A stretch of DNA of 64,000 bases from Heterohyrax brucei (taxonomy: Eukaryota > Chordata > Mammalia > Hyracoidea > Procaviidae): NCBI GenBank assembly GCA_028571685.1, contig CM053143.1:151460329-151524328 (forward strand). The letters are read 5' to 3'. Positions 3,735 through 28,734 of the stretch are shown one piece after another. The translations under genes were made by a program, and so were the position numbers. Position 1 is the stretch's first letter. Each line of letters starts with the position of its first letter. A model generated the notes under the pieces. It searched no databases and had not been told where the DNA came from. It was given only the letters and a program-made list of their open reading frames with translations.

Positions 3735-4683
3735 TTAGTGGTTTTGTTTTTCTAAGCCAAGACATTCTTTCAGTATTTCTTGTAGCTTTGGTTTGGTTTT
3801 TACAAAGTCTCTGAGTTTCTGTTTATCTGCGAATGTCTTAATTTCCTTTTCGTGCTTGAAAGATAGTTTTGCAGGCTATATAATTCTTGGTTGGAAGTTC
3901 TTCTCCTTCAAGGCTTTGAATGTGTCCTGCCACTATCTCTGTGCCAGCATTGTTTCTGCTGAGAAATCCAATGAAAGCCTACAGAGGTTCCCTCTGAATG
4001 TCAGCTTTGCTTTGAGTCTTGCTGCCTTTAAGAGTGTCTGCTTATGTTTCCTTTTGTTAAACTTGATTATGTCTTGGAGTCTTTCTTTTGAGATCTATAT
4101 TGAGTGGCATTCAATATGCATCTTGAATATCTATATTCTTTCCTAATTTCTGGGAAGTTTTCTGTCAGCAGCTCAGAAACAATACTCTCTGTGTTCTCAG
4201 GTGTCTCACCCTGTTCAGGAACTCCAGTTAATTGTAGATTGTTCTTCTTAATAGAGTCCCACATGCTTCTTAATGCTTTTTCATTTTTCTTGTTTTTTTC
4301 TACTGATTTCTCCTCATAGATGCTGGAGTCAGTAGCTCTGTCTTCCAAGTAAGAAAGTCTCTTTTCCATTTGTTCCATTCTGTTTTCTTGGCTTTGAATT
4401 GAAGTTTCTATGTCTTTGATTTTGTTATTGATTTGTTGGATTTCAGAGTACTGGTGTTCCATCAGATCGAAAAGCTTGCTTAAATTTTCATTTTGCTCTG
4501 CTGCATTTTGTATGATGTCTAGGAGGGCTCTATCTATAATCCTTTTGTATTCACCTTCCAATAGTTTCAGCAGGTTTCTATATATGAGAAATTCTTTGGT
4601 TCATCCTTTTGGGGGCCTTCTGAAGCCATGTATAATTTCTTCATTGTGCTTTTATCAAGAGTTTTTTGCTTTTGGGGCATCAT
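3735..4683 (-). pseudogene. L1 ORF1 (RNA-binding protein) remnant
   Basis: ORF1p coats L1 RNA as a trimer and acts as a chaperone. The likely start codon is at 4683 or 4680 (a Met-Met-Pro-Gln-Lys start), just upstream of a Lys-rich N terminus. A frameshift near 4590 precedes the long readable segment 4561-4067. That segment shows a heptad-like coiled coil ('IQQINNKIKDIETSIQSQ' and onward) and then the start of the RRM ('NNLQLTGVPEQGETPEN'). It stops at 4067, but the C-terminal domain continues in other frames down to the stop at 3735-3737, including a 'DFSAET' motif and a 'TKPKLQE' tail like those of other mammalian L1 ORF1 proteins. The protein is broken by frameshifts but its domain order is complete. 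Confidence 0.8.
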
Positions 4684-5508
4684 GTGAGTCAGTAAAGGCT
4701 GGAAGAGATGCTGTGAGGATGGACTGCAGTTGTTTCTCTAGGCCATCTTAAAATGAAAGGTAAAATGTATCTGAGAACTTCCAAAGTCAGTCAGATTTTC
4801 AGGTGTATAGGTCCCTCTTCCCAGCTGGCAAAGTAAGCACCTCTATATCCAATCCAAGATGTTATAAACTAGCTCTAAATATAAAAAGGCTACTGCCCTG
4901 CTGGCCTCTGCTGTCGGGCCCCAGCTGTAGATGACACTGTGTAGAATACTGCTTTTCTGCCAGAAAAGCTCTCTCCTCTGGGCAGGCGCTGCCTCCCAGC
5001 CTAGGAATTAGGTCCAGCTAAGGCCTCTGTATGTTTAACTCCACCTCCCAGTGGAACAAGATGGCATCCTGCACAAGCTCCCTGCTTGTCACAGCACAGG
5101 CCACTCAATGGCAGAGGCGGAAAGAGAGGCCAAAGGTGCCAAGATTCACAGAGTCCAAAGCTGGGCTCTCAAAGTGTAGCAGTTTTGACCACTGATCTCA
5201 CCAGCAGTGCACCTAAGACCAGTTGCCAGTCAAGTCACATCTCCACCCTCTGGCCAAGACAGAGGAAAAAAGATTAAAATGGTGAGTTATCCTTGATCCA
5301 TGAAAACCAGCACTCACTGAGAGTGGGGGTCAGCAAAAGAGAGGAAGTTTTCCATTCAGTGGTATGAAGTCCAAATTAACAGCCCTATACTGTGTCCTAG
5401 GGCTCATTAGGTGTCCAGAAGGCTCTGTTTAGTTATCAGTTCAGGTCTTCATTTCCAGAGGGATTTAGGGGGACGTGTGTTTAGTCTACCATCTTGAGTC
5501 TGCCTGTC
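4684..5508 (-). promoter_or_regulatory. L1 5' UTR with one promoter-like unit
   Basis: This matches the 5' UTR of the sense L1 at 23,775-25,020 but holds only one of the roughly 250-bp units that are repeated three times there. The shared landmark 'ttttctgccagaaaagc' lies near 4950. The 5' end abuts the target duplication, so this copy is not 5'-truncated. Confidence 0.7.
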
Positions 5509-23396: not shown

Positions 23397-23774
23397 TTTT
23401 CACAACCTAGGGATTCCATATAGATATATTTTAAAATAAATTGTAGAGTCTCTCGGCAGGTAGAAGAGAAGATGCCATATGCAGTTTGGAGTAATGTGAT
23501 AAAATGTGATTTTAAAATGATAAATGTAGTTTGGGATGAAATACATTGCTGTTTAATCTCTGTCATTTTGCCCATATGGTCAGACTTGTACCTGCCAGGC
23601 ATCCCTTGGACAATGCTGTATTTGGTTGGGATTGCATCAGGATGAATCATTTCCCCCCTGAGCTTGCCATAGTTCCTTCAGGAACTTTGTGAAAATCTGA
23701 GAGATTTGGACTGATCACCTTTTGTAATGCTCAGCTGTTAACTGAGTTACTTTTTTGTTTAAAAAGTGGAAATG
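23397..23774. other. Unassigned sequence left of the sense L1
   Basis: No gene recognised. The last bases ('aagtggaaatg') serve as the left target duplication of the L1. Confidence 0.4.
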
Positions 23775-24116
23775 GGTCAGAGTCAAGAAGGCAAACTAAA
23801 CATACGTCTCCCTGAATCCCTCTGGAAAACAAGACCTGAACTGATAATTTAATGGAGCCTTCTGGATGCCTAGTGAGCCCTAGGACGTGGCATAGGGCTA
23901 TTAATTTGTACTTCATACCACTGAACGGACAGCCTTCTCTCTTTCACTGACCCCACTCTTGGTCAGAGCTGACTTACACAGACTGAGGGTAACTCACCAT
24001 TGTAACTTTTTTTCTCTGTCTTAACTGGTGGATGGAGCTGAGACTTGACTAGCAGCTAACCTCAGAGGCACTGCTGGTGGGATCAGCAGGTGAAATTGCC
24101 ATATTTTGAGAGCCAG

Positions 24117-24869
24117 GCTTTGGACTCAGTACATCTCAGCACCTTTGGCTTCTCTTTCCACCTCCAAAATAGAGTAGTTGGTACCTAAGCAGGCAGCGAG
24201 CTTGTGCAGAATGCCATCTTGATCCATTGGGAGGTGGAGACACCTGTATATAGGCCCCAGCTTGACTTAATTCCTAGGCTGGGAGGCAGCACCTGCCCAG
24301 AGGAGAGTGCTTTTCTGGCAGAAAACCAGTATTTTACACAGTGTTGCCTACAGCTGGAGCCTGGCAACAAAGACTGTGGACTCTGTGCATCTTAGAACCT
24401 TTGGCCTGTCTTTCTGCCTCCACCATAGAGTGAGCTGTATCCAAGCAGGTGGCAAGCTTGTGTGGGACACAATCTTGATCTATTAGGAGGCGGATACACC
24501 TATACAGAGGTCCCAGCTGGACTTAATTCCTAAGCTGGCAGGCAGCACCGGCTTGGAGGAGAACACTTTTCTGGCAGAAAAGCAGTATTTTATGCAGTGT
24601 CGCCTACGACTGGAACCTGGCAACAGAGGCTGTGGACTTTGTGCATCTCTGCATCTTTCACCTCTCTTTCCACTCATGCCATAGAGTAGCCTGTTCCCAG
24701 GCAGGCAGTGAGCTTGTGCAGGAAAGGAGGCAGAGATGCCCAATACAGAGGCCCCAGCTGGACCTAATTCCTGGGCTGGAAGTCAGTGCCTGCCTGGAAG
24801 AGGGCGCTTTTCCGGCAGAAAAGCAGTATTCTACACAGTGTCGCCTACTGCTGGGGCCTGACAGCAGAG
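24117..24869 (+). promoter_or_regulatory. Three tandem 5' UTR units of the sense L1
   Basis: Three diverged units of about 256, 256 and 241 bp follow one another. The landmark 'ggcagaaaa' sits at 24,317, 24,573 and 24,814. Each unit also repeats 'aggcagcg/ggtggca/aggcagtg agcttgtg', a 'ccccagctt/ctggac' block and an 'acagtgtcgcctac'-like block. The antisense L1 has one such unit. In mouse L1, tandem 5' units (monomers) act as the promoter; that role here is inference. Confidence 0.8.
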
Positions 24870-25430
24870 GTGAGCAAGCAGTAGCCTTTCTGTATTTTGA
24901 GCTAGTTATAACATCAGGGGTTGGATATAGAGGTCCTTACTTTGCCAGCTAGGAAGAGGGACCTATACACCTGAAAACCTTACTGATTCGGGAAGTTCTC
25001 AGATACTTTTTACCTTTACGGGACACATCACCCAGAAACCTACTCAGCTAGGGAAGACTCCAAACTCAATCAAAGCTATAGTGGTGAGAGAAATAATCCA
25101 GTGATCATATCATGAAAAATATGATGCCATCATTTTAAAAAGAGGGATGTACTACAATTGTTATAGTCCTTCCAGGTGGAGAGGATGTTGATAAGAATGG
25201 TAGCAATTGAAATTGAGTTTATATATAGTTTATTAAGGGGGATCATAGGAGTAGCCGTGAAGCACAATAGGAATGCAACATAATCAAATGAAGAGACATA
25301 ATACAGAAGTCTCTGCAACCACTAAGCCAACCCTGAAAAAGGTGAAAAATCAACTCATAAGGAAGAATGTCCCAGAACAAATTAATAAAAACAACAGGGA
25401 AAACATCAACAGAAAAATAAACATATCACA

Positions 25431-26171
25431 ATGACAGCACTGAACAAATACCTATCAATAATTACATTAAATGTGAATGGACTGAACACTCCAATGAAGA
25501 GACATCAAGTGACATCTTGGATCAAAAGACTCAACCCACCCATATGTTGCCTACAAGAAACTCACCTTAGACTTAAAGATATGAACAAACTGAAAATTAA
25601 AGGATGGAAGAATATATATCAAGCTAACAACGATCAAAGAAGAGCTGCTGTGGCAATTCTAATCTTAGATAAAATGTATTTTAATATAAAATCAACCGTC
25701 ATTGACAAGGATGGGACGCTATTGCTGAAAGGTTCTATACACAGACAGGACTTAACAATGTTAAATACTTATGCACCTAGCATCAGAGCACCTAAATACA
25801 TCGAAGAAACACTGACTACACTCGAAAAGGACATAGATCACTCCACAATAATAGTGGGAAACTTCAACACTCTACTCTCAGTATTGGACAGATCATCTAG
25901 AAAAAAGCTCAATAAAGACAGAGAAGATCTTATTGCCACAATTAACCAAGTAGACCTCATCGACACATACAGACCTTTCTGTCTATCAGTGGACAACTAC
26001 ACCTTCTTCTCCAGTGCACATGGAACATTCTCCAGAATATACCATGTGTCAGGACATAAAGCAATTCTCAATAAAATCCATACAATTGAATTAATGCAAA
26101 GCATCTTTTCAGATCATAAAGCCATAAAACTCAGAATCAATCCCAATACAAATTGCAGTGACATTTTTTAA
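25431..26171 (+). pseudogene. L1 ORF2 endonuclease domain, truncated
   Basis: An open frame of 246 codons covers the whole APE-like endonuclease domain of L1 ORF2, which makes the target nick. The catalytic Asn ('LNVNGLN'), the Glu ('CCLQETHL'), the Tyr in 'LNTYAPS' and the terminal 'SDHKAIKL' motif are present. The motif normally written GDFN reads 'VGNFNT', so one catalytic Asp is Asn. The frame stops just after the domain, where sequence jumps to the far side of the RT. Even if translated, the product should be nicking-defective and without RT. The start fits the usual ORF2 ATG, after the inter-ORF spacer. Confidence 0.88.
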
Positions 26172-26199
26172 TGAGATGGAGAAAGAAATTACCAACTTT

Positions 26200-27425
26200 G
26201 GAAAGGGAAGAAGCCCCAGGTAAGTAAAGCACTCCTGAAAAAGAACATACTGGGAGCCCTCTCACTGCCCGACTTTAGAAAACTATTACACTGCCACAGT
26301 AGTCAAAATCACCTGGTACTGGTACAAAAAGAGACAGATAGATCAGTGGAACAGAACTGAGACCCCAGAGATGATACCATCTTCTTATGAACAGTTGATA
26401 TTTGACAAAGGCCCTAAGACATTAAACTTGGGTAAAAACAGTCTCTTCAACAAATTGTGCTGACATAATTGGATATCCATCTGCAATAAAGTGAAACAAG
26501 ACCGTATCTTACACCTTTTACAAAAACCAACTCAAACTGGATAAAGATCTAAACATCAAAACTAAAACGATAAAGCTCATCCATGAAAAAGTAGGAACAA
26601 CAATGGAAGTTTTGATACACAGTGCAGACAGACTTCAGAATCTGTCAAACAAACCACAAACAACAGAAGAAAATAGCTAAATGGGAACTATTAAGAATCA
26701 AACATGTTTGCTCATTCGAAGACTTTATTAATAGAATTAAAAGGCCATCTAAATAATAGGAAAAAATATTTGGTAACTGTGTCAGACTGATGCCTGATCT
26801 CCATAATCTATAAGGTACTACAAAGTATCAACAAGAAAAAGATAGATAATCCAATTAAGCTTTGGGCAAAGGAGGTGGACAGACACTTCTCTGAAGAGGA
26901 GATCCAGGCAGTCAAAAAACATATGCGGACATGCTTACCATCATTAGCTGTTAAAGAAATTCAAATGAAAATTACAATGAGATACCGCCTAACCCCAGCA
27001 AGGTTGACCATGATCCAAAAAACACAAAACAAAAAATGCTGGAGTGGCTGTGGAGAAATTGGAACTCTCCTACACTGTTGGTGGGATTGCAAAATGGTGC
27101 AGCCTCTTTGGAAAGCAATCTGGCACTTCCTTAAACAGCTGGATATAGATATACCATTTGATCCAGTAATTCCACTACTTGGAATATATCCTACAGAATC
27201 AAGTCGTTCACCCCAACTCATACATGCACACGAATGTTTATTGCAGCACAGTCCACAATAACAAAAAGATGTGGTCAACAACAGAGGAATGGATAGGTAA
27301 ACTATGGTATATATACTCAATGGAACACTATGCAATGATAAAGAACAGCTATGATTTTTGGAAACATCTCATAACCTTGTTTCAATTGGAGGACATTATG
27401 TTGAGTGAAAGTAGTCAGTGACGAA
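26200..27425 (+). pseudogene. L1 ORF2 C-terminal region
   Basis: The part of ORF2 after the RT core, read in more than one frame. A stretch near 26,285-26,350 reads as the conserved '[17 protein letters not shown]' segment. The open frame 26,875-27,261 starts 'MDRHFSEEEIQ' and holds the L1 zinc-knuckle-like cysteine motif CX3CX7HX4C ('CWSGCGEIGTLLHCWWDC') with every Cys and His in place. The final segment continues in another frame to 27,421 ('EEWIGKLWYIYSMEHYAMIK'). Several frameshifts separate the pieces. Confidence 0.85.
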
Positions 27426-28447
27426 AAGACAAATATTGTATGAGACCCCTATGATATGAACTTAAAAAGAGACTCATGCATAGAAGAAAAGACTCTTTGA
27501 TGGCTGCAAGGGTGGGGAGGGAGGGAAGGTGGGGGGAAGAGTTTAGATTAGATAGTTGATAGAAATTTGGTTGGGTGAAATCTGTGACGGCACACATTAG
27601 AAAGAAGGCCAATATTAACTGGACTTCAACATAAAATGATTACTCCTCCTATCTTAACCCAGTATTGCAAGGACAGAGTAGCAAAGGTAAAGGGCCATGG
27701 ACCATGCTATCAGGGGAAATCGAGACCAATTGATACAACTAGCATTTTGCTAGGAGAGCCCCCTGTAACCCACATTGGTGAGTGGTGTCTGGGTTCTTAA
27801 CAGCTGCCAAGCTCCCATCTGAGGATATAGCAAACGGTCCCAACTCAGCAGGAACGGATGATCACCAAGGACCAAAATGACATGGGGGAAAGAGAACCCA
27901 GAAGACAGGGAGACCCATGTGAGTGGGTGTCTGCATTGACTTGCAACCAGAAGAACCAAATGGTGCCCGGCCTCCACCAGTGATAGCTGTGGTGGAGGTC
28001 AACGAAGTTGAGTCTCACTGGCAACACAAGAATAAAAAGGAGTTCACCCTGAGATCTCCAGTAAAAGACCACAGCTGATCGTCCAGGGGCCTTGCGGTTC
28101 CCCTGGGAGCATGGCCCCTGGCCCTGATGCTGCCGCTGTCCATAAATCATAATGGAGTTCAACTCTTCAGACAGGAATGGATTGGACTTGGTGACACAGA
28201 GTGACCATATCACGTGTGCACTTTGTGATTCTGTGCATCTAGAGGATGTTGTCCTGCTGACCTCTTACTGGAGGAAGGGGAGTGGGTAGAGAGGAGGGGA
28301 TAGGAAGATTGTTGAAGGGACAAGACATGTATGTGGCAAAGAGGAAGAGTATGTTGTCACTGAGCATAGAGAGCAGGGGGAGCTGCATATAGGTGGGCAT
28401 GGCAGATTTATATGGGAATGTATATTTTTCATTCAGTCAATAAAAAG
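27426..28447 (+). other. L1 3' UTR, first family
   Basis: Contains a G-rich run (27,510-27,537) soon after the ORF2 end and ends with 'aataaaaag' before the target duplication. Homologous to 1,592-2,694 and 39,588-40,490 on the other strand. Confidence 0.85.
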
Positions 28448-28734
28448 AAGTAGAAATGACACATGTGGCTTTCATGAAAAAGCTTTGGAAATATTTTAGT
28501 ACTTCCTTTAGGCACTTTTGTAAAAAGAAGACTTCCACTAAGATTAGACAATGGATACAGCTGGAACATTCCTGTGATGCTATACAACAACCAGGCAGAG
28601 TTTGTCTGTCACCTAGTAATTCCCTTCCTGAACTCATGGTCCTGGTTAATGAAATACATCAGGACATTTTTCCAGGGAGTGCTCCTTCTCAGTGTACAGC
28701 TTTGTTCACAGCTTTGTTCACGTTTACCCTTCAG

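Follow-up and report, generated by a model that had tools for sequence, protein, structure and literature searches.

How a retrotransposon comes to carry several copies of one segment of its 5' untranslated region (UTR), whether by duplication within one inserted copy or in the source elements of a whole family, is the question raised by a sense-strand L1 in a stretch of 64,000 nucleotides from Heterohyrax brucei (the window). Tandem units in L1 5' UTRs are of a known kind, since they have been reported in several mammals (PMC9022269, in the part of that source available to us; PMC5872511). In mouse, according to the available text of PMC9022269, two-monomer constructs of the Tf_I, A_I and Gf_I subfamilies exceed one monomer plus tether in reporter assays, with the exception, for A_I, that the second monomer alone is stronger than the two-monomer construct. 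The same text names the L1 5' UTRs of hyrax, elephant, horse and opossum as monomeric and gives Boissinot and Sookdeo 2016 as its source for hyrax, elephant and opossum. Mouse G and T monomers carry the YY1 motif GCCATCTT (PMC6454616, available part), and in the type-1 5' UTR of horse L1 (L1_Ec1 families) three repeats are held to be ancestral, one of them having been lost and then regained (PMC5872511).

Methods

Relatives of the window copy were collected with two queries. First-look candidates numbered 10,770 for the array query and 7,583 for the leader-only query; in each case 40 were scored, the window copy included, and the 39 others were all fetched. Units were assigned to a type by majority at ten of 14 diagnostic columns, and L093, which has a unit split by an indel, and L095, which is cut, were typed by hand. 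The choice of columns, the initial reading of recombinants, the unit tree and the divergence estimates were made without L047, L075 and L079 and before L085-L095 were fetched. Of 69 elements, 59 had leader, unit and spacer all recognised, and removal of every row not longer than 300 bases, the window sense copy among them, left 55 for the tree of spacer and ORF1.

Results

Anatomy of the array and its element

A first-pass annotation of the window had placed three tandem units of 256, 256 and 241 bp at 24,117-24,869, and these are present. They are 80-81% identical to each other, with pairwise alignment scores of 160-248 against a shuffled maximum of -128. The parallel diagonals that the annotation expected appear in a self-comparison of 23,400-25,900 at about +256 (E 2e-102) and about +512 (E 8e-39), and TRF reports a period of 256 with 2.3 copies at 24,121-24,721. 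The landmark GGCAGAAAA stands on the plus strand at 24,317, 24,573 and 24,814, as had been noted; it occurs once on the minus strand (4,953) and has no further exact match within the window. The region around it, TTTTCTGGCAGAAAA (24311-24325, 24567-24581 and 24808-24822), forms a perfect inverted repeat of 15 bases centred on a single base; 31 of 126 units carry it exactly, units 1 and 2 of the window array among them, and unit 3 differs from it at one position. Self-comparison of the window also bore out the single unit attributed to the antisense L1, which is 81-83% identical to the three sense units in pairwise alignment. About 1.9-2.2 kb is missing from the antisense L1 near 2,695-2,699, and internal deletions are found in both L1s of the window. 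The features of the two elements are listed in Table 1.

Table 1. Positions of L1 features in the window
Feature	Position	Strand	Basis and remarks
ORF1 region of antisense L1, decayed	3750..4756	-	Sequence comparison
Spacer preceding ORF1, antisense L1	4757..4905	-	Sequence comparison
Single unit of antisense L1, B-like	4906..5160	-	Self-comparison, alignment, diagnostic columns
5' leader of antisense L1	5161..5505	-	Sequence comparison
Probable target-site duplication, left copy AAGTGGAAATG	23764..23774	+	Found by eye in this one copy; 10/11 bases shared with 28448..28458 (1 mismatch)
5' leader of sense L1, 342 bp, true 5' end	23775..24116	+	Leader starts compared across elements
Unit 1, type A, 256 bp; retains GCCATCTT	24117..24372	+	Self-comparison, pairwise alignment, diagnostic columns
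Unit 2, type A, 256 bp	24373..24628	+	Self-comparison, pairwise alignment, diagnostic columns
Unit 3, type B, 241 bp; deletion of about 15 bp takes out the CCATCTT site	24629..24869	+	Self-comparison, pairwise alignment, diagnostic columns
Spacer from array to ORF1, 151 bp; in the position of the mouse tether	24870..25020	+	Comparison with relatives
Remaining sense L1: inter-ORF stretch, ORF2 fragments, 3' part	25021..28447	+	3' limit from probable target-site duplication
Probable target-site duplication, right copy AAGTAGAAATG	28448..28458	+	Found by eye

The array does not stand at the 5' end of the L1, where it had been placed. A leader of 342 bp lies upstream, and the array is internal because this leader starts at a common base with unrelated flanks. 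The leader start was reached in 27 of the 30 elements examined and is the same base in all 27; mean identity is 0.30 over the 60-bp flanks before the leader and 0.80 over the first 45 bp inside the element. Near the leader start the sequence TCAAGATGG, which we take to be YY1-like, is kept in 14 of the 27 elements (counted by eye) and is mutated in the window copy.

Matches to ORF1 and ORF2 follow the leader, units and spacer in this order in 19 of 20 relatives fetched at 7.5 kb. One of the 19, L017, is rearranged; the exception, L014, has an ORF1 piece of 53 bp and no ORF2. With both reading frames downstream of the 5' UTR in the family, the element is a LINE-1, and the array with its leader and spacer belongs to the 5' UTR of an L1 family now fossil. 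The window sense copy keeps pieces of ORF2 and has lost ORF1, whereas other copies carry both: a junction at 25,015/25,021 skips about 1.05 kb that is kept in four compared copies, and about 1.75 kb of ORF2 is absent near 26,138 relative to four relatives. No alignment spanned either the ORF1 or the ORF2 junction in 67 loci (L009-L036 and L046-L084), although for 47 of these the fetched sequence was so short that ORF2 would not be expected in it. The two junctions look private to the window copy. A subfamily lacking ORF1 was considered and rejected, as neither junction was spanned in these loci.

Unit number across copies

The family is large, and its 5' UTR carries head-to-tail units whose number varies between copies (one, two or three). 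Among the 39 other copies of the array query, a sample biased to three units by design, 28 have three units, eight have two and three are irregular; the third unit is cut in L085 and L095, and L090 has three units and a 90-bp piece of another. The leader-only query is blind to the array, and its 39 other copies, which like those of the array query are not a random list, comprise 26 with one unit, 10 with two, none with three and three that are broken off (L047, L075 and L079). Three-unit copies are therefore rare among the copies nearest this leader. Apart from the L1s, C26 has alpha-like globin copies at L040 and L041, separated by about 15 kb, whose second exons translate identically. Beta-globin exon 2 matched PDB entry 2qu0 (sheep) best and 3vre (mammoth) next, which does not decide the lineage, and myoglobin exon 2 encodes His at the distal site, where elephant has Gln. 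Contig size declines over the 21 of C1-C26 with a length on record, and C27, at 202 Mb, is probably the X chromosome; with 26 autosomes this would give 2n = 54, as in hyraxes.

Unit types

Unit order is position-specific, being A-A-B, A-B or one B-like unit. Type A is common to the first and second units of three and the first of two, and type B to the last units; of the 14 diagnostic columns, column 3 is an exception that follows position next to the leader and not type. The first unit of three-unit arrays is A in 21/21, the second A in 20/21 and the third B in 20/21, two-unit arrays have A first in 18/18 and B second in 17/18, and single units are B-like in 25/27; these calls are partly by construction because the columns were picked on those rows. 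The 11 loci fetched afterwards, the net divergences and the unit tree are free of that selection. Seven of the 11 loci are A-A-B, as is L093 if the parts of its split third unit are taken as one, while L092 has a B/A middle unit and L090 and L095 are A-A plus a piece.

With CpG columns masked, net divergence between units 1 and 2 of three is 0.45% (0.22-0.68); it is 3.2-3.6% between A and B, 0.9-1.1% between single units and B, and 2.6-3.0% between single units and A. In the unit tree, 59 of the 60 A units fall in one group (SH-aLRT 98), which they share with three single units and one B unit. Judged by the net value of 0.45%, the A units were nearly identical at amplification, and because units 1 and 2 differ so little the three-unit state was young when it spread. 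The position-specific pattern requires that source elements underwent duplication before amplification and were then copied.

Recombinant units that begin as type B on the 5' side and end as type A on the 3' side occur in four arrays (L021, L030, L036 and L092). The switch from B to A lies at columns 153-159 in L021, L030 and L036 and at columns 159-217 in L092, and the four are possibly a small subfamily of recombinant arrays.

Evidence on the direction of change

An old relative, at positions 805-1572 of L017, has the same leader, one unit and the spacer, and no internal tandem repeat was found within it. It is 68% identical overall and 63% in the unit (score 93 against a shuffled maximum of 33). 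Nine of the diagnostic columns can be read in it: seven match the single-unit majority, five match type A and four match type B. Leaving out the two CpG columns (96 and 235) brings these figures to five, three and four of seven, and as an outgroup this one copy is weak evidence. Columns 217 and 247 are among those at which it has the type-A base. This old relative lies directly upstream of a three-unit copy.

Single units have the A base at column 159 in 25 of 27 cases, and most are B-like at columns 105-153 and 217-250. One crossover between A and B does not yield this mix, and the single unit is therefore better read as near-ancestral. In L051 and L071 the single unit is of type A towards its 5' end and of type B towards its 3' end, and L081 is less clear; by their column patterns these two copies, and perhaps the third, appear to have lost units by recombination.

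On the tree of spacer and ORF1 the unit-number labels require 14 changes against a shuffled mean of 25.8, and none of 200 shuffles was as low. The labels cluster yet mix, the tree is star-like, and support falls short of 80 on 33 of its 52 inner branches; because the labels mix and most inner branches are weak, no order of states can be read from it. Mean CpG-masked distance within groups is 0.188 for three-unit, 0.177 for one-unit and 0.151 for two-unit copies. By this measure three-unit copies are not younger and distance does not follow unit number, and since both samples were chosen for their similarity to the query and the tree has a star-like shape, these values do not rank the three states by age.

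Motifs in the units

The heptamer CCATCTT is exact in 64 of 126 units, versus 1.3% in mononucleotide shuffles, and in 56 of the 64 it lies at position 96-98. It is present in every unit class, with 6 to 17 members each. An exact GCCATCTT, the longer motif, occurs in 36 of 126 units, but third units have none (0 of 21) and second units of two have it in two of 18 cases; in decayed copies such counts speak of presence in the source and not of constraint. Within the window copy the longer motif is intact in unit 1 and altered in unit 2, and the site is lost from unit 3. The window array has a GC content of 0.52 against 0.41 for the window, and no CpG enrichment was found in it (CpG/GpC 0.12 versus 0.21 for the window).

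Discussion

Taken as a whole, the data are in our judgement quite probably explained by duplications of promoter units in source elements, spread by retrotransposition and accompanied by some losses. An internal segment of about 255 bp would have been duplicated in a source element, turning a single unit into A-B, and the A unit would have been duplicated again to give A-A-B. Each state of unit number would then have been copied through the genome by retrotransposition in roughly one burst, and recombination between units would have lowered the number in some copies. The units would most likely form part of the L1 internal promoter, where extra units would alter transcription as mouse monomers do. 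The interpretation offered by the first-pass annotation holds in so far as the unit was multiplied in an L1 family and inherited by many copies; its terminal position for the array does not, and the stronger promoter or release from repression that it proposed is at most a conjecture.

That annotation had also allowed for extra units in this copy only, as a local tandem duplication after insertion would leave them. The one point for such an event is the single unit of the window's antisense L1. Against it, 36 of the 39 other array-query copies share the register of the window array with two or three complete or almost complete units, and a unit resembles those at its own position in other loci; the survey rules the event out, and we give it practically no credence. 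The opposite course within the family, in which a three-unit ancestor gave rise mainly by loss, through recombination between units, to two- and one-unit copies, draws more from the data. Some single units are recombinant, plainly in L051 and L071 and less plainly in L081, three-unit copies match the others in divergence, the outgroup has type A at columns 217 and 247, and in horse L1 one repeat was lost and later regained (PMC5872511). The column mix of the single units (A at 159, B-like at 105-153 and 217-250) nevertheless does not follow from one A x B crossover, the sole old relative has one unit, and the net difference between units 1 and 2 of three is just 0.45%, so that we regard loss as the main direction as unlikely. 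One unit is probably ancestral, on the witness of that single old relative, and the sequence comparisons make gain from one unit the likelier direction, with losses apparently occurring as well.

The promoter role is argued by analogy with mouse, the units being putative promoter modules. Alternatively, the units may be a neutral expansion of the 5' UTR with no promoter role, transcription being driven by the leader. All 27 placed elements have the leader as their fixed 5' end, 14 of them keep TCAAGATGG (by eye), and one unit is enough for many copies. Exact CCATCTT nevertheless occurs in every unit class, as GCCATCTT does in mouse G and T monomers (PMC6454616, available part), and the GC content of the array exceeds that of the window. 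A neutral expansion is on this evidence somewhat improbable, if less so than loss as the main direction, and we prefer the reading of the units as promoter modules.

The duplication of units in source elements admits a more specific form. Within one burst, closely related copies, as judged from spacer and ORF1, would have spread in three dosage states (one unit, A-B and A-A-B), and A would be a module that arose by duplication, diverged, and lies between an invariant leader and an old B. We hold this form only tentatively and would sooner doubt it than adopt it. If it is true, the family offers a natural dosage series of promoter units that arose by internal duplication, unlike the growth at the 5' end in mouse. 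The family is mostly ordinary, yet its copies record changes in unit number. One-, two- and three-unit states with traceable types allow one to read in what order and by what route units were gained and lost, and the family supplies native segments for testing unit number against transcription.

The nearest known systems are the mouse L1 monomers (A, Tf and Gf), which, as described in the available parts of PMC9022269 and PMC6454616, are likewise tandem 5' UTR units of variable number with a non-repeated spacer before ORF1; G and T monomers also share with the units here a YY1-type site (PMC6454616, available part). In the hyrax family, however, a leader of 342 bp upstream of the units is the fixed 5' end, and there are at most three full units (one copy has a further piece), with types fixed by position as A-A-B. 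The mouse array, by the account in those parts, is itself the 5' end of the element and starts at variable monomer positions, which was not found here, the leader being 5'-most in 27 of 27. Because a single leader forms the 5' end in all 27 placed elements, we do not class the structure as a mouse-type monomer array. No description of an internal placement with position-specific A-A-B units was found in the literature searched, Boissinot and Sookdeo 2016 being outside its reach. Horse type-1 L1 is alike by description and differs in that three repeats are inferred to be ancestral there, whereas here one unit is likelier to be ancestral. The 5' UTRs of hyrax, elephant and opossum L1s are named alike, as monomeric, in the available text of PMC9022269, and the structure here may be the hyrax L1 family already reported as monomeric, or a related one. 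Taken alone, the family adds detail to a known pattern, in which repeated promoter units arose in several mammalian L1 lineages.
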